A stretch of 37,031 nucleotides of DNA from Bacteroidaceae bacterium (lineage in GTDB: Bacteria; Bacteroidota; Bacteroidia; Bacteroidales; Bacteroidaceae): the NCBI GenBank assembly GCA_017471185.1, contig JAFUVZ010000052.1:1-37031 (forward strand), read 5' to 3'. Under the pieces are notes generated by a model that saw only the letters and a program-made list of their open reading frames with translations, had not been told where the DNA came from and ran no database searches. The position numbers were made by a program, and so were the translations under genes. This document shows, in pieces, positions 8,358 to 37,031 of this stretch (position 1 is the stretch's first letter; every line of letters begins with the position of its first letter).

Positions 8358-9515
8358 ATGAACGAAAAGCTCAATATACAGGATTTGACCGAAGAACTTG
8401 CTGAGAACCATGGTTTAAGCAAGAAAAACGCTGAATCGTTCGTGAAAGATTTCTTCACGCTTATAGAAGATGCGTTGGAAAAAGACAAGTATGTAAAGAT
8501 AAAAGGATTGGGAACTTTCAAACTGATTGATGTTGATAGTAGAGAGAGCATTAACGTCAACACAGGTGAAAGGTTTGAAATCCAAGGTCATTCTAAAATA
8601 TCTTTCACCCCCGATTCTGCTCTTAAAGAAGTGGTTAACAAACCTTTTTCTGCTTTCGAGACAGTCGTGCTTTCTGAGGATGCAGCGATTGACGAACCTG
8701 TTGTGGATGAAAAAACTGGAGAAACAGGAAACACAGCTTTCGTAGAACCTATTACTGAAGAACCTGTTACTGAAGAACCTGTTGCAGAAGAAGAACCTGT
8801 TGCAGCAGAAGAACCTATTACTGAAGAACCTGTTGCAGAAGAACCTGTTGTTGCTGCCCCTATAGAAGGGGAAAAGAGCGATGTCGAAATACTGCCGATT
8901 TTCGACGATGAGGAGATTAAAAAGAGAGATGTGCCTGTAAGTCACCATGAAGAAGTGAAGGCTCTCAAACTCTCTGATGAAAAGCGAAAGGAAATATCCA
9001 AAAAGGCAGAAGGGTCTTCTACACCATACATGATGTTCATCGCAGTGTTGATTATCATGCTTTGCCTGGGTGCAGTCGCTTATCTTTATTATCCTGATTT
9101 GGTAGATAAGAATGCTGTTCAGCCAACGACTATTGAAGAGCCTATAGAAGATAACTTTGATGGAATTCCATTGACAACAGGAGAGAACGATGAAATCAAT
9201 GTAGTGCCTGAAGCTGAAAATAATGAAACGGAAGAGCCTGCAACAGAGAATGTTGAAACCCAGAATCCGATTGTACAGGAAACGGCATCGTTGGAAGTGC
9301 AAAAACTGGAAGAAGGCGTTCTTTACACTACGGATGGCGACTTGGCTACTCATACAGTTGAAAGGGGCGAGACTCTAAACGCTATTGCCAGGAAATACTA
9401 TGGTACAGGAAAGCTTTACAATTATATAGTCAGCTATAATAAAACGATAATCAAGGATCCTGATAACGTGCCTGTAGGAACCGCTATCAAGATACCTAAA
9501 CTTGTTAAGAAATAA
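8358..9515 (+). CDS. Membrane-spanning HU-domain protein with LysM domain
   Basis: The 385-residue protein has an HU/IHF-like domain at 1-92 (LTEELAENHGLSKKNAESFV, then IKGLGTFKLI and NVNTGERFEI), an acidic EEPV/EEPIT repeat linker at 128-168, a basic stretch before the membrane (DEKRKEISKKAEG), one transmembrane helix at about 224-245, a second acidic low-complexity linker, and a C-terminal LysM domain at 332-382 (HTVERGETLNAIARKYYG). The predicted topology places the DNA-binding domain in the cytoplasm and the peptidoglycan-binding domain in the periplasm. Similar proteins occur in Bacteroidetes. A tether between nucleoid and cell wall is an inference from the domain order. Confidence 0.88.
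   Translation: MNEKLNIQDLTEELAENHGLSKKNAESFVKDFFTLIEDALEKDKYVKIKGLGTFKLIDVDSRESINVNTGERFEIQGHSKISFTPDSALKEVVNKPFSAFETVVLSEDAAIDEPVVDEKTGETGNTAFVEPITEEPVTEEPVAEEEPVAAEEPITEEPVAEEPVVAAPIEGEKSDVEILPIFDDEEIKKRDVPVSHHEEVKALKLSDEKRKEISKKAEGSSTPYMMFIAVLIIMLCLGAVAYLYYPDLVDKNAVQPTTIEEPIEDNFDGIPLTTGENDEINVVPEAENNETEEPATENVETQNPIVQETASLEVQKLEEGVLYTTDGDLATHTVERGETLNAIARKYYGTGKLYNYIVSYNKTIIKDPDNVPVGTAIKIPKLVKK
8745..8850 (+). repeat. In-frame 15-bp minisatellite (EEPVT/EEPVA)
   Basis: Repeated GAAGAACCTGTT-type units of about 15 bp encode the acidic EEPVx linker of the HU-LysM protein. All unit changes keep the frame, so copy number could vary without disrupting the protein. Confidence 0.75.
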
Positions 9516-14582: not shown

Positions 14583-15277
14583 AAATGAGAGGTATAAAAT
14601 ATGGTTTGGTATTGACGGTAATGTTGGCGTTGTCACTGTCTTCCTTTGCTCAGAAGGCAGAGCGAGACTATATCCGCAAGGGTAACAGACAATACCATGA
14701 CAGTGTGTTTGTGGATGCGGAAGTGAGCTATCGCAAGGCGATAGAGGCTAACCCAACGTCAGCTATGTCACGATATAATCTGGGAGGCGCTCTGTTGTAT
14801 CAGAATAAGCCACAGGAAGCCTTGAAGGAGTATGAAGCAGCATCAAAGATGGAGCATGACAAAGGGAAACTCGCCTCTGTTTACCATAATACAGGTGTGA
14901 TTTTCCAAGCTGCCAAGCAATACAAGGAAGCTATCGAGGCGTACAAGGAGTCGCTGAGAAATAACCCAAAGGATCATGAAACGAGATATAATCTGGCGCT
15001 TTGTCAGAAACTGCTGAAAGATCAGGAGCAACAAGGTGGTAATAACGACCAGCAACAACAAGAACAACAGCAGCAAGACCAACAGCAGGATCAGCAGCAA
15101 CAACAGCAACAGGATCAACAGGACCAGCAACAACAACAGCAACAAGATGAGAATCAAATGTCTAAGGAGAATGCTGAGCAGTTGCTCCGTGCCGTGATGC
15201 AGGATGAGAAGGATGTGCAGGACAAAGTGAAGAAAAAACAAGTGATGCAGGGCAGAAAATTAGAAAAAGATTGGTAA
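14579..15277 (+). CDS. batC: BatC, TPR protein with polyglutamine linker
   Basis: A 232-residue exported protein with a signal peptide (LVLTVMLALSLSSFAQ), tetratricopeptide repeats from about 28 to 142 (AEVSYRKAIEANPTSAMSRY and AYKESLRNNPKDHETRYNL are clear units), and then a glutamine/aspartate tract at about 146-193 before a charged C-terminal tail. TPRs mediate protein contacts, so this should be a periplasmic adaptor for the Bat complex. The start overlaps the batB stop; a second ATG at 14585 would also serve. The glutamine tract is the odd element and its length may vary between strains. Confidence 0.9.
   Translation: MKMRGIKYGLVLTVMLALSLSSFAQKAERDYIRKGNRQYHDSVFVDAEVSYRKAIEANPTSAMSRYNLGGALLYQNKPQEALKEYEAASKMEHDKGKLASVYHNTGVIFQAAKQYKEAIEAYKESLRNNPKDHETRYNLALCQKLLKDQEQQGGNNDQQQQEQQQQDQQQDQQQQQQQDQQDQQQQQQQDENQMSKENAEQLLRAVMQDEKDVQDKVKKKQVMQGRKLEKDW
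15050..15157 (+). repeat. CAA/CAG trinucleotide-rich tract in batC
   Basis: About 36 codons are almost all CAA or CAG with interspersed GAC/GAT and GAA, giving a polyglutamine tract with aspartates. The mixture of codons lowers but does not remove slippage risk. Any change by three bases keeps the frame. Confidence 0.8.
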
Positions 15278-17133: not shown

Positions 17134-17880
17134 ATGAAACAATACGTTATATTTATCATATTCTTGTTTGCCAGCTTGTCAGTCAACGCTCAATCCTTAA
17201 AAGCTGAAGCTGACAGTGCCTATATAAATAAGGAGTATGCCAAAGCGATTGAGCTATACGAATCGCTATTAGAACAAGGAGAATCCGGTGAAGTGTATTA
17301 CAATCTGGGCAACAGCTATTTTAAGCAAGAAGAACTGGGTAAGGCCATTCTAAATTACGAGAGGGCATTGCTCTTGCAGCCAGGCAATTCTGACATCAGC
17401 GCAAACCTTGATATAGCCAGGGCAAAGACGGTAGATAAGGTAAACCCGAATCCTGAAGTGTTTTTCGTTGCTTGGATTCGTGCGCTCATTAATCTATTGA
17501 GTGTAGATACATGGGGATATTGGGGTATCGCATTCTTTCTAAGTATGTTAGCCGCTTTGGTTGTATATTTCTTTACCAATAGGGTGCAGATACGGAAAAC
17601 TGGTTTTTTTGTAGCGATTATCTCACTGATTCTTTGCGTCATAGCTAATTTTTTTGCCTATGAGCAGAAAGGAAAGATAGACCATCGTAATGGAGCCATC
17701 GTGCTTTCTCCAAGCGTAACAGTCAGGAGTACGCCAAGCGATGAAGGTACCAGCCTTTTTATCATCCACGAAGGTCGTAAAGTCACGATCAAGGACAACA
17801 GCATGAAAGAGTGGAAAGAAATCATGCTTGAAGACGGTAAAGTGGGCTGGATTCCAGTTTCCGCTATAGAAATCATTTGA
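17134..17880 (+). CDS. batE: BatE, TPR and SH3-like protein
   Basis: A 248-residue protein. The start MKQYVIFIIFLFASL was chosen (ATG at 17134; another at 17128), since upstream starts lie deep in batD. A signal peptide is followed by TPRs at about 22-100 (KAIELYESLLEQGESGEVYY, KAILNYERALLLQPGN), two transmembrane helices near 125-145 and 153-172, and a C-terminal bacterial SH3-like domain (TVRSTPSDEGTSLFIIHEGR, GWIPVSAIEII). SH3b domains often bind peptidoglycan peptides. It closes the bat operon; no clear terminator follows before the next gene. Confidence 0.9.
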   Translation: MKQYVIFIIFLFASLSVNAQSLKAEADSAYINKEYAKAIELYESLLEQGESGEVYYNLGNSYFKQEELGKAILNYERALLLQPGNSDISANLDIARAKTVDKVNPNPEVFFVAWIRALINLLSVDTWGYWGIAFFLSMLAALVVYFFTNRVQIRKTGFFVAIISLILCVIANFFAYEQKGKIDHRNGAIVLSPSVTVRSTPSDEGTSLFIIHEGRKVTIKDNSMKEWKEIMLEDGKVGWIPVSAIEII

Positions 17881-29503: not shown

Positions 29504-30823
29504 TTACAAAATATTCTCCTTGATTGTAGCGACGATGTATTTCACATCATCGTCGCTGACGCATGGGCCGGTAGGCAGGCACATGCCGACCTTGAAGAGA
29601 GTCTCTGAAACGCCATTGATGTAAGCAACACTTGTATCAGAAGTCTGGCAAACCACACCGGACGGCAAATGTTCAATGCTCAATGTTCCATGTTCAATCG
29701 TGCGTAAGTACACAGGCTGCTTGTGCATCGGCTTCCACACCGGACGAGCCTCGATGTCCGCCTTATTGAGAGCCACACGCATGGCTTCCACGTTGGCATT
29801 GGGCTCACAATCAGTATGGGCTGATTCAGCGGCATGAATAACACCGGCAGCACCGCCCACGGCACCCGTCACGATGGTCTTATAGGCATTCTCCTGACCC
29901 TTCACCTTCACATTCTCGCCAATAGTGATGATGCAAAGCCAGTAGTTTGAGTCATATTCACCATTATTAGGCTGAGAATGAACCTGTATGCCTGGCACAT
30001 CAGGCAACAGCTCCTCATACAGCTTCTGCACATGCTTGTGATGTGCCAAGTGGTCATTCACCACCGTCATCTGGCCACGACCGATACCGGCACAGATATT
30101 ACTCATGCGGTAGTTGTAGCCAATCTTCTCATGCTGATAGTAAGGATAGCTCTCACGGTACTGCGTAGCATACATCATGATCTCGCGCCACTCATCCTCA
30201 TTGGTAGTAATCAGCGCACCACCGCCAGAAGTCGTAATCATTTTGTTACCGTTGAAACTCAGCACGCCATACTTACCGAACGTACCCAGCACCTGGCCTT
30301 TGTATTTCGATCCAAAGCCCTCAGCGGCATCTTCTACCACAGGAATCCCATAGCGGTCAGCAATCTCCATGATGCGGTCAGCCTTGTAAGGCATGCCATA
30401 CAGAGCTACAGGTACGATGGCAGCGGGTTTCTTGCCAGTCTTCGCAATACGGTCCTTGATAGCCACTTCTAACAGTTCAGGATCCATATTCCAAGTGTCA
30501 GGCTCAGAATCCACCAAAACAGGCGTAGCCCCCAAGTAAGTCACAGGATGCGCAGAAGCGCAGAACGTGAAGCTCTGCACAATCACCTCATCACCACGGC
30601 CAACGCCGGCAGCTAACAGTCCTAAATGCACCGCAGCGGTACCTGAAGACAAAGCCACCACACGCTTCCCTTCACCCACGAACTCCTCCAGGTCCTTCTC
30701 AAACCCATCCACGTTAGGTCCCAGAGGCACCACCCAGTTCGTGTCAAACGCCTCCTGGATATACTTCTGTTCCATCCCGGCTTCACTCATGTGAGCCAGG
30801 CACAAATAAATTCTCTTTCCCAT
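29504..30823 (-). CDS. DegT/DnrJ/EryC1-type sugar aminotransferase with a repeat-encoded insert
   Basis: A 439-residue PLP enzyme of nucleotide-sugar biosynthesis. ALSSGTAAVHLGLLAAGV near 57-74, VVEDAAEGFGS near 162-172 (D165 contacts PLP) and the Schiff-base lysine K194 in FNGNKMITTSGGG are present. It would convert a 4-keto or 3-keto nucleotide sugar to the amino sugar for a surface glycan. It is the third gene of a minus-strand set after an acetyltransferase and a sugar-phosphate transferase, recalling bacillosamine-type pathways, though no dehydratase is in view. Residues about 376-386 (IEHGTLSIEHL) are encoded by a heptamer array (29671-29698) and, with the following stretch, look like an insertion before the conserved YINGVSETLFKVG end. 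Confidence 0.92.
   Translation of the reverse strand: MGKRIYLCLAHMSEAGMEQKYIQEAFDTNWVVPLGPNVDGFEKDLEEFVGEGKRVVALSSGTAAVHLGLLAAGVGRGDEVIVQSFTFCASAHPVTYLGATPVLVDSEPDTWNMDPELLEVAIKDRIAKTGKKPAAIVPVALYGMPYKADRIMEIADRYGIPVVEDAAEGFGSKYKGQVLGTFGKYGVLSFNGNKMITTSGGGALITTNEDEWREIMMYATQYRESYPYYQHEKIGYNYRMSNICAGIGRGQMTVVNDHLAHHKHVQKLYEELLPDVPGIQVHSQPNNGEYDSNYWLCIITIGENVKVKGQENAYKTIVTGAVGGAAGVIHAAESAHTDCEPNANVEAMRVALNKADIEARPVWKPMHKQPVYLRTIEHGTLSIEHLPSGVVCQTSDTSVAYINGVSETLFKVGMCLPTGPCVSDDDVKYIVATIKENIL
29671..29698 (-). repeat. Heptamer array H1 inside the aminotransferase gene
   Basis: Four 7-bp units read on the minus (coding) strand. Units 1 and 4 are ATTGAAC, unit 2 is ATGGAAC and unit 3 is ATTGAGC. 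The unit-2 change turns an in-frame TGA into GGA. Confidence 0.8.
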
Positions 30824-30885
30824 AAATTTTTGAATATTAGAAATTCAGCTTATTAATCATGCAATAATATATAGAATAAATGTTT

Positions 30886-31494
30886 TCAATTCCTCCCATT
30901 AAACGCCTCGACGGTAGCTTGTCCTTGGGCAGAGATGCCTTCGCGCTTGAATACCTTGATGATGGTGAGGAAGAGAATCTTCACATCAAAGAAGAAAGTG
31001 AGGTGATCCACGTAATACACATCATACTTGAAGCGTTCGGTGAAGGGCAGCTCGTTACGACCGTGAATCTGCGCCCAGCCAGTGATGCCCGGACGGACCT
31101 CATGACGGCGCATCTGCTCTGGTGTGTAAAGCTTCAGGTACTTCGGAATCAGCGGACGGGGGCCTATCAACGCCATGTCACCCTTCAGCACGTTGATCAG
31201 CTGCGGCAGCTCGTCAATGGAGGTTGAACGGACGAACCTGCCCACCTTCGTCAGTCGTTGCGCATCAGGCAGCAGGTTACCCTCAGTATCCCGCTCGTCC
31301 GTCATCGTCTTGAACTTGATTACCTTGAATATCTTCGCATCCTTGCCCGGACGCTCCTGCAGGAAGAAGGCCCCTGCCCCCTTGTTGGCGAAATGCAGCC
31401 AGATGGCCACGATGACAATCAGCCATCCTATACACAGCAATCCCGTCAGAGCCAGGATAAAGCTCAGGCAGCGTTTAAAAAAGTGTTTGTACAT
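30886..31494 (-). CDS. Initiating sugar-phosphate transferase (monotopic PGT, PglC/WcaJ-C type)
   Basis: A 202-residue membrane enzyme that moves a sugar phosphate from a nucleotide sugar to undecaprenyl phosphate, the first step of glycan assembly. MYKHFFKRCLSFILALTGLL forms the re-entrant membrane helix. The active-site block includes the Asp-Glu dyad in STSIDELPQL, then GDMALIGPRPL and RRHEVRPGITGWAQI. The start at 31494 gives the usual length; the ATG at 31512 would overlap the acetyltransferase stop by 8 bp. A decayed copy of its C-terminal end lies at 32073-32153. Confidence 0.93.
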   Translation of the reverse strand: MYKHFFKRCLSFILALTGLLCIGWLIVIVAIWLHFANKGAGAFFLQERPGKDAKIFKVIKFKTMTDERDTEGNLLPDAQRLTKVGRFVRSTSIDELPQLINVLKGDMALIGPRPLIPKYLKLYTPEQMRRHEVRPGITGWAQIHGRNELPFTERFKYDVYYVDHLTFFFDVKILFLTIIKVFKREGISAQGQATVEAFNGRN

Positions 31495-31504
31495 ATACAA
31501 GTTC

Positions 31505-31963
31505 TTATGCATCAGGTTTATGGCCATGATTAACGATTTGATAATCATCATTTAATTCAATCCCCACGCGCAAAATTTTAGCAGGATTACCTCCTACTAA
31601 ACAATGGTCTGGCACATCTTTTGTAACAACAGCCCCTGCTCCAATAAAACAATGATTGCCTATTCTCAAGCCTGGTAATATAATTGCACGCCCTCCTATA
31701 GATGTATTATGACCAATATAAGTATCGGATTGTTCCTTACCACGGAAATAGTCATGACCAAGCACCATAGCCTCTATAGAAATACGTGAATTATCACCTA
31801 TATGAATGGATTTGGGATAAGCACGTTCCATGGTTGCAGACCTCGCAACAGATACATGTTTACCGATATCCATACCTTTGATAAATTTCAAATAGCCATA
31901 GGTATACAATCCCCTAACTATAATACTAATTCGTTGGCGAAGTGTTCTCTTTCTTTTTTCCAT
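31505..31963 (-). CDS. Hexapeptide-repeat acetyltransferase
   Basis: A 152-residue left-handed beta-helix acyltransferase. Repeats of the [LIV]-G-x4 type are visible from about 55 to 125 (IHIGDNSRISI, YIGHNTSIGGRAIILPGLRI, IGAGAVVTKDVPDHCLVGGN), ending in the GNPAKIL motif typical of sugar O- or N-acetyltransferases. It is probably a surface-glycan acetyltransferase (WcaF/CatB-like). It is first in the minus-strand trio and has a strong stem-loop 34 bp upstream. It is more AT-rich than the adjacent sugar transferase, which suggests a separate history. Confidence 0.88.
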   Translation of the reverse strand: MEKRKRTLRQRISIIVRGLYTYGYLKFIKGMDIGKHVSVARSATMERAYPKSIHIGDNSRISIEAMVLGHDYFRGKEQSDTYIGHNTSIGGRAIILPGLRIGNHCFIGAGAVVTKDVPDHCLVGGNPAKILRVGIELNDDYQIVNHGHKPDA

Positions 31964-31996
31964 ATTAATAAAGTTTTAATAATTTTCAACCAAATC

Positions 31997-32022
31997 GCCT
32001 TTGGGCACAAAGGCCCAAAGGC
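31997..32022. repeat. Perfect 10-bp stem-loop ahead of the glycan genes
   Basis: GCCTTTGGGC (31997-32006) pairs perfectly with GCCCAAAGGC (32013-32022) around a 6-base loop. On the minus strand it lies 34 bp upstream of the acetyltransferase ATG. No T-run follows on either strand, so it is more likely a leader structure or protein site than a terminator. Confidence 0.6.
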
Positions 32023-32072
32023 ATGACAGCTGATTATTATGCCGTCATAAGAACAACGCTTTCAGATAGTGT

Positions 32073-32153
32073 TCAATGATAGCCAATGAAGGCTTCGCAC
32101 TTGAATACCTTGCGGATAATGAGAAAGAGAATCTTGAGATGGAGAAGAATCAC
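32073..32153 (-). pseudogene. Remnant of a sugar-phosphate transferase C-terminus
   Basis: Read on the minus strand this stretch encodes VILLHLKILFLIIRKVFKCE and then a stop. It matches the end of the intact sugar transferase (FFDVKILFLTIIKVFKREG), and the DNA is also similar over about 65 bp (compare 30938-31005). There is no start or catalytic core, so it is a leftover of another glycan cassette or of a duplication, cut at its 5' side next to the small HTH gene. Confidence 0.7.
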
Positions 32154-32392
32154 TTCCAGACAGGCATTACCCCTGCCTGATTGCACTTGTCCAAATCGTT
32201 TAAGACCTGCTCAACTGTATAGTTGTGATACATGGCAAGCACGGAATAGACATCCACATATACCTCGTAACTCACTTTCACATCACCTCGCTTCACTTTG
32301 CAGAAGGTTTTGTAAGATATGCCGGCTTCCTTGGCCAGGACTTTTGTGCTGACATAATAATCAATCAGCAAAACATTGATGATACCCGACAT
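32150..32392 (-). CDS. Small HTH protein divergent from VirE
   Basis: An 80-residue protein if started at the ATG at 32392 (MSGIINVLLIDYYVSTKVLA); a TTG at 32443 would give 97. The stretch TKVLAKEAGISYKTFCKVKR looks like an XRE-type helix-turn-helix, followed by SYEVYVDVYSVLAMYHNYTV. It is divergent from the VirE gene, with two strong inverted repeats in the shared 248-bp gap, so local control of the cassette is plausible. Its 3' end runs directly into the sugar-transferase remnant. Confidence 0.6.
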   Translation of the reverse strand: MSGIINVLLIDYYVSTKVLAKEAGISYKTFCKVKRGDVKVSYEVYVDVYSVLAMYHNYTVEQVLNDLDKCNQAGVMPVWK

Positions 32393-32473
32393 ACGGAGGA
32401 TGACGGAAGCATGGTAGTAACCACCGAATACTTGGTTATTCAATTAGGTCTTAACTTAAAAAGTGTTGAGAAA

Positions 32474-32491
32474 GTGGAAATATTTTTCCAC
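32474..32491. repeat. Inverted repeat in the HTH/VirE gap
   Basis: GTGGAAA (32474-32480) and TTTCCAC (32485-32491) are perfect arms around TATT. The site lies nearer the HTH gene and may be an operator. Confidence 0.55.
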
Positions 32492-32538
32492 TCATGATTG
32501 TTTATCGTTAAAACCTAAAGGATAATCGTAAGTTTTCA

Positions 32539-32576
32539 GACATAGTGTCGAAAATATCTTCTATTTTCGCACTGTC
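32539..32576. repeat. Long inverted repeat ahead of VirE
   Basis: AGTG-T-CGAAAATA (32544-32556) pairs with TATTTTCG-CACT (32562-32573): 12 bp with one bulged T and a 5-base loop, extended by GAC/GTC at the base. It lies about 65 bp upstream of the VirE ATG. The stretch from there to the ATG is very AT-rich and no clear promoter box was found. Confidence 0.6.
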
Positions 32577-32639
32577 AAAAAGCCGGCAAGTATGATTTAA
32601 ATTAAAATTTTAAACAAACTAAAAATTTTTTATTACTAT

Positions 32640-35036
32640 ATGATTATGAACAACGAACTAAAAGTGTCCATTTTCGCCAACTTGCAAAGTGTAAAAAGCA
32701 AGGAGGTCAGTCTTGACGAGGTGATACGCATGACCAGGCATGACGAGATCATCCGCCAGAAGACGGAAGGCTACAGGCAGATGGCCCAGGTCATCAGCCG
32801 TGAGGAAGCCAACAGACGCGTCAAGGTAGAGCGTATGGAGGCGTTCTCCGTAGGCGTGGTCTTCAACGGTTCAGGCAAGCAGCCGGAACATGTCGTCAGG
32901 TTCACTGGCCTTGCCATGTTTGATATTGACCATGTTTCTACATTGAACATTAAACATGGAACATTGAACATGGCCAATGCGGATGAACGGATGAAATATG
33001 TCCGAAACCTGATCATCAATGACCCTCATACCATGGTATGCTATAAAACCATCAGTAATGATGGTTACAGGGGCATTTACCGCTACAATCGCCTTTCTGA
33101 CACTGTTGACGGCATTCAGCCTTCAACGGTCAACGGGACCTCCTGGAAAGCGGCGTTCCTCTGTGGCAACGAGTACTACAAAAAGCTAACCGGTTGCGAC
33201 TACGATCCGGCTTGCAGCGACTACGGCAGGCTGTCAGGCATGGCGCATGACGAGGATGTGTATTACAATCCCGATGCGGAGCCGTTCGTCATCACCGACG
33301 ACATGATCTTGGCGGCCAACTTCGCTGAAAGCTGTGAGTCTGGCAAGCCCCGTAAGGTGTTCGATGCCGGAACCCAGCAGGCCACCATCGAAGAAGCCTG
33401 GTCCAAAGTCAGTAAGATATTAGCCAGACGGAACATGGAGTACCAGCCCCATCACCGGCATGACTACATCCTGCACGCCTGCTACCTCTTCAACCGCTTC
33501 GGTGTGCCGGAAGACGACCTGCGCACCTGGGCGGAAGGACAGTGGAGCGATTTCGATTCCCGTGAGCGGGAAGCCATCATCACCCACTGCTACAACAAAG
33601 GCCAGGACGAACACGGAACCTGGCGCGTCAGTCGCGACAGCAGGAAGAAGCCGCAAGAGAACTCTATGATTACCATAGCGGAAATCCGCCAGTGGCTCAC
33701 AGACCACGTCGAGCTAATCTATAATGTCGTCACTGACCAGACAATGGTCAGGAACATTGAACATTACCATGCGGACAATGCTGCAGCCCCCTCAGCTCTC
33801 CCCCTTAGAAAGGGGGAGTACGGCAAAGCCGGGAGGGGGTATGATACCGGTCAATGCTCAATGGTCAATGTTCAATGGTCAGTCGTTGACGACCGCATTC
33901 TCGCCTCATTGCGTTCCCAGATGGCGGTGGATACCGGCAAAAGGGTGCTGAAAAGCGACGTATATGATGTCATCAAGAGCGACTTCGCTCCGTTAGTGCA
34001 TCCCGTCAGAGACTATATCAATGCCTTGCCACCCTGGGATGGCAAAGATCGGGTTTCAGAGTTGATATCACACATCCGCGCCGAAGCGTCAGTGCCGGGG
34101 CAGACGGATGAGGAAGCGCAGGAAGACCTGCGGTGGGCGTTCCACAAGTGGCACTGCGCCACGGTAGGCTGCTGGCTTGACGACCATGTGACCAACCACC
34201 AGGTGTTCACCGTCATCGGCAAGCAGGGCATCTACAAGACCACCTTCTTCCGTTTCCTCCTGCCCCCTGAGCTGCGGGCCTACTTCTGGGAGAACGCCCA
34301 CAACACCTTCACCACGAAGGATGACAGGCTGGCCTTGGCTGAGAACTGCCTCGTGGATATCGAGGAAGTGGAAGCCACCGGGCAAAAGGAACTGTCAGAG
34401 CTTAAGTCTTTGATTACCACCGACACCATCAAGGAGCGAAGGCCCTACGCCCGCTTCCGGGAAGCCAAGCGTCGCCTGGCATCCCTCTGCGCCACTGGCA
34501 ACCAGCAGCGTTTCCTGACCGACGAGACAGGTAACCGCAGGTGGCTCTGCTTCAAGGTGAGCCACATTGACGATCCCCGCACGTGGAATATTGATTATCA
34601 GCAGCTGTACGCACAGCTCCGTGACGAGTTCCGCAGCGGATTCCGCTACTGGTTCAACACAGAAGACGAGCAGCGTGTGGAGCGGCTCAACCAGCCCTTC
34701 CGTGTGGAGAGCGACGAGGAGCAGCTCATCAGCATGAGGCTCCGTAAGCCCCAGGAGGGGGAGACTGCCAGACTCATGAACGCGGCCATGGTCTGCCAGC
34801 TGCTCAACGGAGGACATGTGGGCTATCCCCTGTCCTCACGCAAGGTTAGCGTGGCGATGGTCAGGCTCGGCTTTGAGGTCACGCACACCCGTAAAGGCAA
34901 TTTCTTCAAGGTCATCGAGATACCGTTTGACCAGGTGCAGTCGCATCTCTCGGCAGAGGCTTACGATTACGCCCATGAGGATACACACGGTTCCAGTGAG
35001 CCGGAGCAGCCTGCAGAGCCGAAACTGCCGTTTTAA
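32640..35036 (+). CDS. VirE/VapE-family primase-helicase
   Basis: A 798-residue replication-type protein. The N-terminal half resembles BT4734/VirE-N primase-like domains: MFDIDHV with D95 and D97, SNDGYRGIYRY near 138-148, and the CSDYGRLSGMAHDEDVYYNP block near 190-210. The C-terminal half is a VapE-type SF3-like ATPase, with Walker A GKQGIYKTT at about 527-535, Walker B NCLVDIEEVE near 570, and LASLCATGNQQRFLTDETGN near 615-635 with an arginine at NRRWLCF. Residues 100-111 and about 368-415 are encoded by heptamer arrays and a GC-rich hairpin element, all kept in frame. It leads the cassette that ends in the amidase. Confidence 0.88.
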   Translation: MIMNNELKVSIFANLQSVKSKEVSLDEVIRMTRHDEIIRQKTEGYRQMAQVISREEANRRVKVERMEAFSVGVVFNGSGKQPEHVVRFTGLAMFDIDHVSTLNIKHGTLNMANADERMKYVRNLIINDPHTMVCYKTISNDGYRGIYRYNRLSDTVDGIQPSTVNGTSWKAAFLCGNEYYKKLTGCDYDPACSDYGRLSGMAHDEDVYYNPDAEPFVITDDMILAANFAESCESGKPRKVFDAGTQQATIEEAWSKVSKILARRNMEYQPHHRHDYILHACYLFNRFGVPEDDLRTWAEGQWSDFDSREREAIITHCYNKGQDEHGTWRVSRDSRKKPQENSMITIAEIRQWLTDHVELIYNVVTDQTMVRNIEHYHADNAAAPSALPLRKGEYGKAGRGYDTGQCSMVNVQWSVVDDRILASLRSQMAVDTGKRVLKSDVYDVIKSDFAPLVHPVRDYINALPPWDGKDRVSELISHIRAEASVPGQTDEEAQEDLRWAFHKWHCATVGCWLDDHVTNHQVFTVIGKQGIYKTTFFRFLLPPELRAYFWENAHNTFTTKDDRLALAENCLVDIEEVEATGQKELSELKSLITTDTIKERRPYARFREAKRRLASLCATGNQQRFLTDETGNRRWLCFKVSHIDDPRTWNIDYQQLYAQLRDEFRSGFRYWFNTEDEQRVERLNQPFRVESDEEQLISMRLRKPQEGETARLMNAAMVCQLLNGGHVGYPLSSRKVSVAMVRLGFEVTHTRKGNFFKVIEIPFDQVQSHLSAEAYDYAHEDTHGSSEPEQPAEPKLPF
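32942..32969 (+). repeat. Heptamer array H2 inside VirE
   Basis: Four 7-bp units: ATTGAAC, ATTAAAC, ATGGAAC, ATTGAAC. It encodes TLNIKHGTLN directly behind the DxD motif. The ATGGAAC unit replaces what would be an in-frame TGA. Confidence 0.85.
33741..33884 (+). repeat. Composite insert in VirE: heptamers, hairpin element, inverted heptamers
   Basis: On the left is a degenerate forward heptamer segment with one exact ATTGAAC at 33756-33762. In the middle is the 53-bp hairpin element. On the right are five reverse-oriented units at 33850-33884 (GTCAATG, CTCAATG, GTCAATG, TTCAATG, GTCAGTC). The heptamers on the two sides are inverted relative to each other. The whole block stays in frame and codes about 48 residues between the two VirE domains. 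Confidence 0.75.
33787..33839 (+). repeat. 53-bp GC-rich three-stem element (REP-like)
   Basis: An outer 7-bp stem (CCCCCTC 33787-33793 with GAGGGGG 33833-33839) encloses a 9-bp hairpin (33798-33806 with 33810-33818, loop AGA) and a 4-bp hairpin CGGC-AAA-GCCG (33821-33831). This folds as a three-way junction. It resembles GC-rich palindromic repeats found between genes in many Bacteroidetes. Confidence 0.7.
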
Positions 35037-35044
35037 CATCAAGC

Positions 35045-35164
35045 GTGAAGCGGTGAAGCTCGTGTACGCGACTTTACCTATATATTTACATTTACTATTT
35101 CTTTCTTTTCTCTAAATGTAAATGTCATATATGAAAGTTAATATAAGTAACTTCACCGCTTCAC
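35045..35164 (+). repeat. Nested inverted repeats after VirE
   Basis: The perfect 14-bp arms GTGAAGCGGTGAAG (35045-35058) and CTTCACCGCTTCAC (35151-35164) enclose a second pair, TTTACATTTA (35085-35094) and TAAATGTAAA (35113-35122). The structure begins 8 bp after the VirE stop. No T-run follows, so it is not a standard terminator. Confidence 0.7.
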
Positions 35165-35197
35165 ATCCCAAGGCCCGGGTATATGACATCCCGCGGA

Positions 35198-35278
35198 AAA
35201 GTCATAGACTTACGGATGGAAAGTCATAGGCTTACGGTCTGGAAACATAGTGTTTAACAACCCAAAACATAGCGTTTA
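35198..35278 (+). repeat. Four iteron-like repeats at 22-23 bp spacing
   Basis: AAAGTCATAGACTTACGG (35198-35215), AAAGTCATAGGCTTACGG (35220-35237), AAACATAGTGTTTA (35243-35256) and AAACATAGCGTTTA (35265-35278) begin 22, 23 and 22 bp apart, about two helical turns. The units form two pairs sharing AAA-x-CATAG. The last ends on the A of the DUF4248-like start codon. Confidence 0.75.
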
Positions 35279-35460
35279 TGAAAGCAATGTCTAAGCAGCG
35301 TCTCGCAGGATATGCGGGTGTGAGCGTCAAGACGCTCATGAGCTGGTGCAAGCCCTATATGGCGGAGCTACGGAAGATGGGACTCAAGCCCAACGCCAAG
35401 GTCATTCCGCCGCACATCGTCAAGTACATCGCCGACAAGTTCACCATCATTTTCGACTGA
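35278..35460 (+). CDS. Small DUF4248-like protein
   Basis: A 60-residue basic protein (MKAMSKQRLAGYAGVSVKTL start). The segment KQRLAGYAGVSVKTLMSWCK resembles a helix-turn-helix, and PPHIVKYIADKF closes it. Small proteins of this kind (DUF4248 in my reading) are regularly found after VirE and before the HU-like gene at Bacteroidales polysaccharide loci. Iteron-like repeats lead right up to its start codon, which suggests it binds its own promoter; that is inference. Family membership is from memory of the context, not from a search. Confidence 0.65.
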   Translation: MKAMSKQRLAGYAGVSVKTLMSWCKPYMAELRKMGLKPNAKVIPPHIVKYIADKFTIIFD

Positions 35461-35539
35461 GAAAAGCAACTTATCAGGCGGAAAGTGAATAATACGGCGG
35501 AAACGGAAGCAAGCCGAAAGTGCCCCATCGCCCGTGTCG

Positions 35540-35547
35540 TATCTTTG
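35540..35547 (+). promoter_or_regulatory. -7 box (TATCTTTG) for the HU-like gene
   Basis: A perfect TAnnTTTG box 86 bp before the HU-like ATG. There is no TTTG at 19-20 bp upstream. It would give a leader of about 80 nt. Confidence 0.55.
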
Positions 35548-35632
35548 CATCGTCATTGAGACACAATGGCGGGATTCTGGTCAAGCGCGCGGCAAGGGTC
35601 CGGAGTTATTAACTTTTTAAACTTTCAGTATT

Positions 35633-36199
35633 ATGATCCGTTACATTCTCAAGAAGTGCAACAACATCAAGCAGGCCATCTTCGGCAAGGTGTTCGCCTA
35701 CCCGGTCATCGAGGAGACCGTTGACGAGGACGCTCTGGCAGAGCACATGGCAAGTCACAACACCCCGTTCTCCAAGGGAGCCATTAAGGGTATGCTCACC
35801 GATATGGTGCAGTGCATCCATGAGCTGCTGCTCGAGGGCAAGAACGTCAAGCTGAACAACCTCGCCATCTTCTCCATCGGCATCAAGAACGCCAAGGGAG
35901 GCGCTGACTCAGAGGACGACTTCTCCGTTCAGAAGAACATCCAGGGTGTCAAGCTCCGTGCACGTGCCACAGGCATCATGCTGGCCAAGGGCCTCGGTCT
36001 GACCGCCTCGCTGAAGAAGGCCGTTGCCCTGACCGGACTGACTGGCACATCAGCCTCTGGCAGTGGCAGCCCAACCGGCACAGGCACTGGTTCTAACACC
36101 GGCTCAAACACCGGCTCAGGCTCTAACACAGGCTCAGGCTCCGACACTGGTGGCTCAACACCAGGCGGTAACACCGGCGGCGATGACCTGAATGTCTAA
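35633..36199 (+). CDS. HU-like DNA-binding protein with Gly/Ser/Thr tail
   Basis: A 188-residue protein. Residues 1-130 look like the HU-related family common at Bacteroidales capsule loci: MIRYILKKCNNIKQAIFGKV, then the FSKGAIKGMLTDMVQCIHEL helix pair and the GKNVKLNNLAIFSIGIKNAK strand region. Residues 138-184 are a low-complexity tail of Gly, Ser, Thr and Asn (units such as GSNTGSNTGSGS). It should bind DNA as a dimer; the tail is probably disordered. It follows the DUF4248-like gene by 172 bp and has its own promoter box. Confidence 0.82.
   Translation: MIRYILKKCNNIKQAIFGKVFAYPVIEETVDEDALAEHMASHNTPFSKGAIKGMLTDMVQCIHELLLEGKNVKLNNLAIFSIGIKNAKGGADSEDDFSVQKNIQGVKLRARATGIMLAKGLGLTASLKKAVALTGLTGTSASGSGSPTGTGTGSNTGSNTGSGSNTGSGSDTGGSTPGGNTGGDDLNV
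36052..36184 (+). repeat. In-frame short repeats coding the Gly/Ser/Thr tail
   Basis: Units of 12-18 bp built from GGCTCA, GGCTCT and AACACCGGC repeat with small changes at the end of the HU-like gene. Length change in multiples of three is likely between strains. Confidence 0.7.
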
Positions 36200-36211
36200 T
36201 TGACAATTGAC
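36198..36211 (+). repeat. Heptamer pair H5 (AATTGAC twice)
   Basis: Two exact AATTGAC units. The first overlaps the HU-like stop codon (TAA, 36197-36199). Confidence 0.55.
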
Positions 36212-36235
36212 TTCGTCCTATTTCGTAACGACTCG

Positions 36236-36262
36236 GCAAAGTTCAAGCATGCTTGACTTTGC
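36236..36262. repeat. Palindromic hairpin
   Basis: GCAAAGTTCAAGC and GCTTGACTTTGC are complementary with one bulged T, centred on the palindrome CAAGCATGCTTG. It sits in the 194-bp gap between the HU-like and smalltalk genes, without a T-run. Confidence 0.6.
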
Positions 36263-36307
36263 GCTCGATGCTCCGAAATGTGACGATTGCCATCCGGAGG
36301 TGAAGTA

Positions 36308-36378
36308 GAGACGGGGCTTGCCCCGTCTCCCTCAAAAACCAATCATAATTAACCTTGATGCGGAGCTTGCTCCGCATC
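36308..36378 (+). repeat. Twin 9-bp hairpins with CTTG loops
   Basis: GAGACGGGG-CTTG-CCCCGTCTC (36308-36329) and GATGCGGAG-CTTG-CTCCGCATC (36357-36378) share the same 9-4-9 layout and the same G(CTTG)C loop, but have different stems. The second ends 15 bp before the smalltalk ATG. Confidence 0.8.
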
Positions 36379-36393
36379 ACAAATCAAATCAAT

Positions 36394-36501
36394 ATGTTTA
36401 AGAAAATCAAAGTAAACTGGGGCGTTGTCGTCAACGCCGTATTAACATGCGTAACCACGGTGATCAGTGCGATAACCCTCCACTCCTGCGTGATTCATTG
36501 A
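36394..36501 (+). CDS. Smalltalk-type small membrane peptide
   Basis: A 35-residue peptide (MFKKIKVNWGVVVNAVLTCV, then TTVISAITLHSCVIH). A basic start, a tryptophan and one hydrophobic helix ending in a conserved-looking SC match the small 'smalltalk' family that lies between the HU-like and amidase genes in Bacteroidales. It is probably a membrane peptide; a cysteine near the end could suggest membrane attachment, but no lipobox at the N-terminal side is present. Its TGA stop codon lies inside the first ATTGAAC unit of the following array. No function is known to me; a holin-like role with the amidase is inference. Confidence 0.75.
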   Translation: MFKKIKVNWGVVVNAVLTCVTTVISAITLHSCVIH

Positions 36502-36538
36502 ACATTGAACGTTGAACATTGAACGTTGAACATTAACT
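36497..36538 (+). repeat. Heptamer array H6 (ATTGAAC/GTTGAAC)
   Basis: Five exact-length units, ATTGAAC at positions 1, 2 and 4 and GTTGAAC at 3 and 5, then a sixth degenerate unit ATTAACT. It begins in the last codons of the smalltalk gene. Confidence 0.85.
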
Positions 36539-36541
36539 GAG

Positions 36542-36576
36542 TTCATTATTCATTACTCATTATTCATTATTCATTA
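36542..36576 (+). repeat. Heptamer array H7 (TTCATTA)
   Basis: Five units, four TTCATTA and one CTCATTA, three bases after array H6. It ends 5 bp before the amidase ATG and so fills the whole leader region of that gene. Confidence 0.85.
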
Positions 36577-36581
36577 AACAA

Positions 36582-36998
36582 ATGCGAAGCATAGCATTCA
36601 TCATATTGCACTGCAGTGCCACCCGTTGCGACCAGAGCTACAGCTTTGAAGCCTGCAAGCGTGATCATCTGAAGCGAGGTTTTACAGACATCGGCTACCA
36701 CTGGTACATTGAATGCGACGGCACCGTCCATGAAGGTCGCAAGGAAGAGCTTGTAGGAGCTCACTGCAAGGAGCGCAACAAGCACTCCATCGGAGTATGC
36801 TACGAGGGAGGCTTAAACGAGAACGGCCAGTTCGCCGACACCCGCACGGAAGCCCAGAAGGACTCCCTGCTCGACCTCCTTATCCAGCTGCATCAGCGAT
36901 ATCCCGAAGCAGTGATCACGGGGCACAATGAGTTCAATCCTCACAAAGCCTGCCCATGCTTCGATGCCGAGGAATACCGGGCTATATTCTCAATTTGA
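36582..36998 (+). CDS. N-acetylmuramoyl-L-alanine amidase (Amidase_2, T7-lysozyme-like)
   Basis: A 138-residue amidase that cleaves the bond between muramic acid and the stem peptide of peptidoglycan. The zinc ligands are probably H10 (ILHCSAT), H115 (GHNEF) and C124 (KACPCF); Y39 (IGYHW) and K122 fit the catalytic pair of T7 lysozyme. HSIGVCYEGGLNENGQ near 68-83 is also typical. The length is near that of phage endolysins. No signal peptide is seen, so export would need help, for example from the small membrane peptide encoded just upstream. It closes the cassette. Confidence 0.93.
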   Translation: MRSIAFIILHCSATRCDQSYSFEACKRDHLKRGFTDIGYHWYIECDGTVHEGRKEELVGAHCKERNKHSIGVCYEGGLNENGQFADTRTEAQKDSLLDLLIQLHQRYPEAVITGHNEFNPHKACPCFDAEEYRAIFSI

Positions 36999-37002
36999 GA
37001 AC

Positions 37003-37031
37003 ATTATCCATTATTAATTATTAATTATTAA
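37003..37031 (+). repeat. Heptamer array H8 (ATTATTA), reaching the window edge
   Basis: ATTATCC followed by three exact ATTATTA units, starting 4 bp after the amidase stop codon. It may continue past the edge. Confidence 0.75.

Follow-up and report, generated by a model that had tools for sequence, protein, structure and literature searches.

Tandem repeats of seven-base units are known from several bacterial lineages. Calothrix and other cyanobacteria carry tandem heptanucleotides (STRR) with several units in one genome, as does the genome described here, although they belong to another phylum and the likeness is one of description only. Heptanucleotides were the most abundant class of simple sequence repeat (SSR) in most genomes of Mrazek et al. 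(2007, as cited in PMC4679880 and PMC4692102), who put forward the hypothesis of a polymerase favouring 7-base steps; described families include the GGGAATC and GGGGA(C/T)T repeats of Xanthomonas and Nostoc (Rehm et al. 2015, PMC4692102) and the TAACTGA direct repeats of Beggiatoaceae, Cyanobacteria and five Bacteroidetes (MacGregor 2015, PMC4679880). Here we describe arrays of A+T-rich heptamers in a 37-kb contig (JAFUVZ010000052.1, 37,031 nucleotides; the window) of a Bacteroidaceae bacterium, one of 85 contigs in an assembly of 2.76 Mb that is 80% complete (the window genome), and in its relatives.

These arrays resemble the SSRs of Mrazek et al. (2007), as later cited, in that period 7 is the commonest, that they are scattered over the genome and that slippage has been proposed; they differ in having genome-specific dialects of units and in the in-place replacement of units at orthologous sites, some of them in frame within enzymes. 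Like the Xanthomonas and Nostoc repeats (PMC4692102), they are intergenic, lie near the ends of open reading frames (ORFs), form some inverted pairs and vary in length and sequence between related strains or relatives at the same intergenic place; in the families described there each genome has a single type of unit, G-rich and quadruplex-forming, whereas the units here are A+T-rich, several per genome and partly placed in coding loops. With the TAACTGA repeats (PMC4679880) they share a mostly intergenic position, often just 5' of start codons, and possible absence from close relatives, but that family keeps one fixed unit across phyla, while here the unit differs among species of one genus. 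In the open-access literature searched we found no description of dialect turnover at orthologous sites and of in-frame replacement in enzymes, and none of the titles listed concerned heptamer repeats in Bacteroidales or Prevotella, although a published account may well exist elsewhere; such word-swapping at fixed places is unusual among known bacterial heptamer repeats.

The arrays are dispersed through the window genome. An initial annotation of the window had described them as confined to a glycan/amidase region, a claim that fails genome-wide: (ATTGAAC)x3, allowing at most 3 mismatches, matches at 390 overlapping places spread over many contigs, whereas the reversed pattern matches at 5. 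With at most 2 mismatches the count is 305, the next-ranked genomes of the genus sample having 89, 80, 56 and 39, and any such place occurs in only 12 of 119 genomes of the genus sample and 13 of 149 of the order sample, the window genome included. A de novo census of 41 stretches (689 kb) of the window genome yielded 56 period-7 arrays (60 under an alternative merging rule without masking of N), followed by the multiples 14 (46 arrays) and 21 (40); outside 7 and its multiples the commonest period was 22, with 25, so that the peak at 7 that the annotation had proposed to look for is present. Two hallmarks of heptanucleotide SSRs are thus found, a dominant repeat period of 7 bp above chance and dispersal through the genome in mostly non-coding positions.

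Density in this sample is 8.1 per 100 kb overall, with 5.2 in a blind part (13 arrays in 252 kb) and 9.25 on contigs chosen for hits (37 in 400 kb). Five congeners are richer (G239 16.0, G187 14.5, G231 18.5, G288 23.3 and G197 16.6 per 100 kb) and three genomes are poor (G203 2.7, G285 1.7, and G178 0 in 160 kb sampled). With its own multiples set aside, period 7 leads in the window genome and in all five rich congeners, and it leads across 80 named DegT loci (548 kb) with 64 arrays, ahead of periods 14 (45) and 9 (37); a 20-stretch run gave 28 at period 7 once three all-N stretches were dropped (31 with them). Most of the genomes used are metagenome assemblies, a point in favour of an assembly or chance artefact, which we nonetheless find scarcely credible: order-3 Markov copies of the 689-kb sample hold about 2.3 period-7 arrays against the 56 observed, arrays are matched in frame by coding sequence in many assemblies, and records titled as cultured strains far exceed the reversed control for (ATTGAAA)x3 (KHT7 64 versus 0, Ga6B6 37 versus 0, MA2016 36 versus 2).

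Within the window, which was scanned with Tandem Repeats Finder (TRF; minimum score 30) and by a separate criterion of our own, six of the eight period-7 arrays originally listed were recovered by TRF; the two at 33741 and 36198 hold two copies each and fail by either criterion. The observation that the core of the window lacks comparable arrays was borne out, with zero period-7 arrays in 1-29400 by both criteria, and the Poisson chance of an empty 29.7-kb stretch is 22% at the blind-sample rate or 9% at the whole-sample rate. Six arrays in 7.4 kb make this the densest of such stretches sampled, the others having four at most; the local cluster is real, its exclusivity to the glycan/amidase region is not.

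Most arrays stand between genes, hard against stop and start codons. Across four genomes 130 of 154 lie outside ORFs and 24 inside, by a crude ORF set (at least 90 codons) that itself covers 89-93% of the DNA. The median distance from stop codon to array is 5.5 bp in the window genome and 37, 1 and 2 bp in G239, G187 and G231, and that from array to start codon 24.5 bp and 6, 21.5 and 10 bp, respectively; at one site of the window genome (B3) the longest ATG-initiated ORF starts within the array.

Each genome has its own vocabulary of units. In a test on four genomes, with sites merged within 1 kb, the unit alone placed 75 of 111 array sites in the right genome, whereas 300 shuffles gave a mean of 28.7 and a maximum of 46, and same-unit pairs within genomes numbered 303 against 150 ± 15 expected. 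Counts of single patterns over whole genomes bear this out in part. AGTTAAG, the DegT unit of locus L089, occurs at 73 places in its genome (G157), at 137 in G153 and 99 in G158, and at none in the window genome, G187, G239 or G203 (the reversed pattern is itself another dialect, ATTGAGA, and its figures were taken solely as the frequency of that unit). AGTGAAA, the DegT unit of L116, occurs at 64 places in its genome (G160), 88 in G158 and 63 in G150, and at no more than one in each of seven searched genomes of the window's genus, a count to which the reversed-pattern control does not apply, as the reversal reads as AGTGAAA itself. ATTGAAA is most frequent in G166 (116 places), with 57 and 46 in G167 and G150, which have it as their DegT unit. 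Dialects are thus common to some genomes. The fixed period with changing units noted from the window alone extends to the whole genome and its relatives; the accompanying view that this is not the spread of a sequence is not supported, since units recur at scattered loci within a genome much more often than they recur from genome to genome, which indicates that sequence spreads or is homogenised.

The same place in a related genome may be empty or hold another unit. For five sites of the window genome, the orthologous intervals contain arrays in 10 of 21 cases among array-rich relatives, with differing units, and in 0 of 8 in array-poor G203; the other 11 of the 21 places are empty. This occupancy has a binomial P of 0.002 at an assumed occupancy of 18% and 0.02 at 25%. 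The count omits site B2, which has no orthologous interval, and B1 of G288 and G197, where the anchor aligns poorly and no array is present; counting those two as empty gives 10 of 23 (P 0.004 and 0.04). Site A1, which separates the gene for a membrane-fusion protein from one of AcrB type, has arrays of differing units in the window genome, G187, G239, G231, G197 and G288, and none in either G203 copy. Site A3 has period-7 arrays of differing units in the window genome, G187, G239 and G231, and repeats read as period 8 in G197 and G288. An in-frame array in the AcrB-type gene (A2) occurs in the window genome only; B1 shares its array place with G239, and B3 with G231.

Turnover reaches into proteins. 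The DegT aminotransferase gene of the window, whose closest relatives (at most 87% identity) come from assemblies of rumen and omasum that are filed under Prevotellaceae, Prevotella or Bacteroidaceae, has three insert-bearing loops, filled in 35, 20 and 20 of 81 sequences (the middle-loop figure of 20 merging two alignment blocks) by heptamer arrays of many units or by other repeats such as G+C palindromes. Among 20 long linkers of the C-terminal loop the sole best period is 7 in 16, 8 in one and other in three, and 13 have 28 or 29 residues in the frame used. Across the 13 sequences whose 36-base core is free of gaps, shift-7 matches number 262 against 200.9 ± 5.2, a value that none of 5,000 column shuffles reached, the shuffle ignoring relatedness; the unit changes in all copies together, with the frame kept. 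Loop 1 (35 of 81 sequences, L071-L150) also holds, in frame, G+C palindromes (for example in L108, L116 and L096), 9-10-base ACGAAT-type repeats and GCGGGTCAAGCCCGC palindromes. Rickettsia palindromic elements, too, are repeat DNA in frame in protein genes, as palindromes of about 100-150 bp; the repeats here are tandem heptamers, though, as noted, relatives' DegT loops also hold palindromes.

Two other proteins carry arrays. Histidinol dehydrogenase and an aminotransferase class I/II domain (HisC-like) form one open frame of about 787 residues in the window genome (G000:C29:6346-8673) and in five relatives, and the aligned junction segment measures 64-67 residues in all six, with heptamers in G239, G187 and the window genome and none in G203, G288 and G231. 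We rejected an array-caused fusion of hisD and hisC in G239, as the same fusion is present in the other five genomes, array-poor G203 among them. The VapE-like gene of the window has arrays in two loops, and its G187 counterpart (63% identical) keeps the same inverted pair in other units, lacks the palindrome between the arms and carries arrays in another loop too. Selection for frame is visible in the orientation: 19 of 23 coding arrays (counted by eye, one A-rich tract omitted) are placed stop-free, and three coding arrays of the window genome in the other orientation have TGG where TGA would stop; TGGA units there make up 3 of 20 in coding arrays versus 3 of 99 in others. Through such in-frame arrays, the turnover of a non-coding repeat can write new peptide loops into conserved enzymes.

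These findings bear on a possible origin by local slippage alone, in which the contact of a DNA polymerase with about 7 nt would make gain or loss of 7 bases likelier at each locus independently. This is in substance the view of the initial annotation; it accommodates a period locked at 7 while units vary, and it is already published as a hypothesis by Mrazek et al. (2007), cited in both PMC4679880 and PMC4692102. It seems unlikely to suffice: independent seeds predict unrelated units at each locus, and units are instead common within a genome; a single 7-base step in a coding loop would shift the reading out of frame; the junction segment of HisD-HisC holds its length; and period-8 arrays also occur in G288.

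Arrays paired in inverted orientation raise a different prospect, that they are the arms of a small element of MITE/REP type, with heptamer arms round a hairpin core and a transposase acting in trans to move it. An inverted match of 14/16 within 400 bp accompanies 10 of 56 arrays of the window genome, against 4 direct matches and controls of 0 and 3; close to arrays, the motif CCRTNCGG occurs 7 times in G231 (0.78 expected) and 9 times in G288/G197 (0.57 expected); and the 40-bp core between the inverted arms at site A1 has opposite orientations in G197 and G288 (inverted match at 38 of 40 bases). At a 12/16 threshold, however, inverted and direct matches are equal at 25 each (controls 8 and 14), which indicates that most arrays of the window genome stand alone, and the motif is not clearly enriched in the window genome (3 versus 1.57), G239 (2 versus 0.68) or G187 (1 versus 0.42). 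Array flanks at different loci are unrelated: 110 flanks of 200 bp from the window genome show similarity only within one locus and none between loci, so that transposition with shared flanks was rejected, and the shared sequence that such an element should have is confined to the core near arrays in G231 and G288/G197. Y1 transposase, the only transposase family searched for, has two matches each in the window genome and G239 and none in array-rich G187 and G231; since its matches do not track arrays, a Y1/RAYT transposase was rejected as the driver, and we consider the element reading improbable. The core in G231, G288 and G197 carries ACGGCTTCGCCGT-like and CCATCCGGATGG motifs and is flanked by the arrays at L221 19745, L223 15849, L224 7082, L283 7282 and L287 9999.

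Fixed period, genome-specific unit and dispersed sites also recall interstitial telomeric repeats, and a telomerase-like or other template-carrying reverse transcriptase could in principle write arrays at breaks. The reverse transcriptase domain RVT_1 was, however, not found in the array-rich window genome, G239, G187, G231 and G288 (G197 has one match), in genomes 76-89% complete in which single misses are possible, and it does occur in the array-poor G203 (3 matches), G285 (1) and G178 (18). Its absence from the window genome and four of five array-rich congeners makes a telomerase-like enzyme very unlikely, and this candidate was rejected. Nor does anything indicate the recombinase or special polymerase that the initial annotation had invoked, given the same distribution of RVT_1 and the absence of Y1 transposase from two of the array-rich congeners. 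In G178, a 4.25-Mb contig, 11 of the 17 RVT_1 matches listed share the second-best score, 151.7 bits.

Since neither reverse transcriptase nor Y1 transposase follows the distribution of arrays, slippage, copying between arrays and selection are favoured, and we lean, with modest confidence, towards this combination as the origin of dispersed heptanucleotide SSRs. Slippage in replication or repair at a 7-base register would give birth to arrays and alter their length. Template switching or gene conversion through a short shared motif might then let arrays at different loci copy each other, so that one or a few units would take over a genome and old arrays, coding ones included, would be overwritten by the new unit at roughly constant length, while selection would keep only arrays that spare reading frames; a dedicated enzyme would be unnecessary. 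Copying between arrays and the cause of the 7-base register are steps that we infer. Unrelated flanks with shared units point to exchange of the array sequence itself, or to a sequence-specific maker. A block-copying test, which counts ordered unit variants common to different loci against shuffles, gave an excess of 3-mers in G231 (19 versus 4.1; 1/500) and a weak one in the window genome (4-mers 4 versus 0.9, 24/500; 3-mers 9 versus 7.0, 152/500).

Several observations weigh against slippage with copying. The block-copying test is mixed overall, with no excess in G239 (3-mers 4 versus 8.1, 4-mers 1 versus 0.8), in G187 (2 versus 1.9 and 0 versus 0.1) or among the 4-mers of G231 (1 versus 0.65). 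The unit places 36 of the 111 sites in the wrong genome, several unit families can coexist within one genome, and the DegT shuffle, as stated, takes no account of relatedness. Some arrays are inverted pairs round conserved cores and look like elements. The combination itself offers no reason for a register of 7, and 60 kb of G288 holds 9 period-8 arrays alongside 14 of period 7; these argue against a strict 7-base ruler in every genome and allow that the period may come with the inherited unit and not be set by an enzyme. A tentative possibility, which we rate clearly below slippage with copying, is that the arrays are selfish, concertedly evolving repeats, a genome's dialect being copied by homology between dispersed arrays and rewriting gene borders and protein loops; older arrays, even coding linkers, would then be overwritten at nearly constant length.

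Functional upkeep would explain the dialects differently, through a species-specific DNA- or RNA-binding protein that reads the heptamer and co-evolves with the units. Genome-specific dialects and the position near stop and start codons agree with it, and a regulatory role has been suggested for the TAACTGA repeats of Beggiatoaceae (PMC4679880). We regard it as quite improbable: the close relative G203 has about one-sixth of the arrays of three congeners (2.7 versus 14.5-18.5 per 100 kb), the orthologous places in array-rich relatives are, as described, often empty, and neighbouring genes are diverse. Among 41 array-nearest proteins outside the window, 20 were scanned; four look glycan-related (GH3, SusD, GT2 and a nucleotidyl transferase), a count without a random-gene control on which enrichment at polysaccharide genes was set aside, though one may exist, and the other 16 are enzymes, transport proteins, unknown or of no family. 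Non-glycan neighbours include an rRNA methyltransferase, a lyase, a TPP enzyme and DNA polymerase III beta subunit. A check for phase-variable contingency loci, in which the length of an array would switch a surface gene through frame or promoter spacing, found the same diversity of neighbours, and the coding arrays listed stand in open frames. Just 5' of the DnaN gene (L070:17890-19014), which encodes the DNA polymerase III beta subunit, lie an array of 22-bp period (L070:17495-17553) and an inverted heptamer pair (17575-17779).

The 25 arrays of direct repeats spaced 22 bp in the 689-kb sample form a second class of fixed period and changing unit, with a copy in the window at 35196-35279, directly upstream of a small ORF, and further examples at L031 18139-18850 and L047 726-830. 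Repeats of period 15/18 and CAA/CAG-rich repeats within long ORFs of the window, at 8744-8854 and 15047-15147, look like ordinary low-complexity protein segments. The arrays of the window and the genes that carry or adjoin them are collected in Table 1.

Table 1. Heptamer arrays of the window and associated genes, with the spans reported by TRF at period 7
Feature	Position	Strand	TRF span	Remark
DegT/DnrJ/EryC1/StrS aminotransferase gene, array carrier	29504..30823	-		PF01041 4.8e-85
Heptamer array, ATTGAAC type	29668..29698	-	29668-29698	In frame within DegT gene, C-terminal loop; coding strand reads ATTGAAC ATGGAAC ATTGAGC ATTGAAC
BT4734-N / VapE-like domain gene, 798 aa	32640..35036	+		PF08800 8.5e-21, PF05272 6.2e-32
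Heptamer array	32940..32971	+	32940-32971	In frame within VapE-like gene; TGG replaces TGA
Two-copy heptamer GAACATT	33752..33765	+		Forward arm of inverted pair, VapE-like gene
G+C-rich palindromic insert between two arms	33787..33840	.		Absent from G187 orthologue, both arms kept there
Heptamer array GGTCAAT/GCTCAAT	33849..33881	-	33849-33881	Reverse arm of inverted pair, VapE-like gene
Two-copy heptamer AATTGAC	36198..36211	+		Overlaps stop codon of HU-like gene
ATTGAAC/GTTGAAC array, intergenic	36495..36534	+	36496-36534	
TTCATTA array, intergenic	36541..36580	+	36542-36576	Ends 1 base 5' of amidase ORF ATG
N-acetylmuramoyl-L-alanine amidase (Amidase_2) ORF, arrays on both sides	36582..36998	+		PF01510 3.3e-15
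CATTATC/ATTATTA array	37002..37031	+	37010-37031	Begins 3 bases past amidase stop; contig end cuts array

Why heptamers are, as reported, the commonest long simple repeat in many bacterial genomes is a question to which only hypothesis has so far been offered. A lineage whose members range from 0 to 23 arrays per 100 kb among neighbours in the stretches sampled, speak differing dialects and hold both empty and filled orthologous sites makes that question testable.

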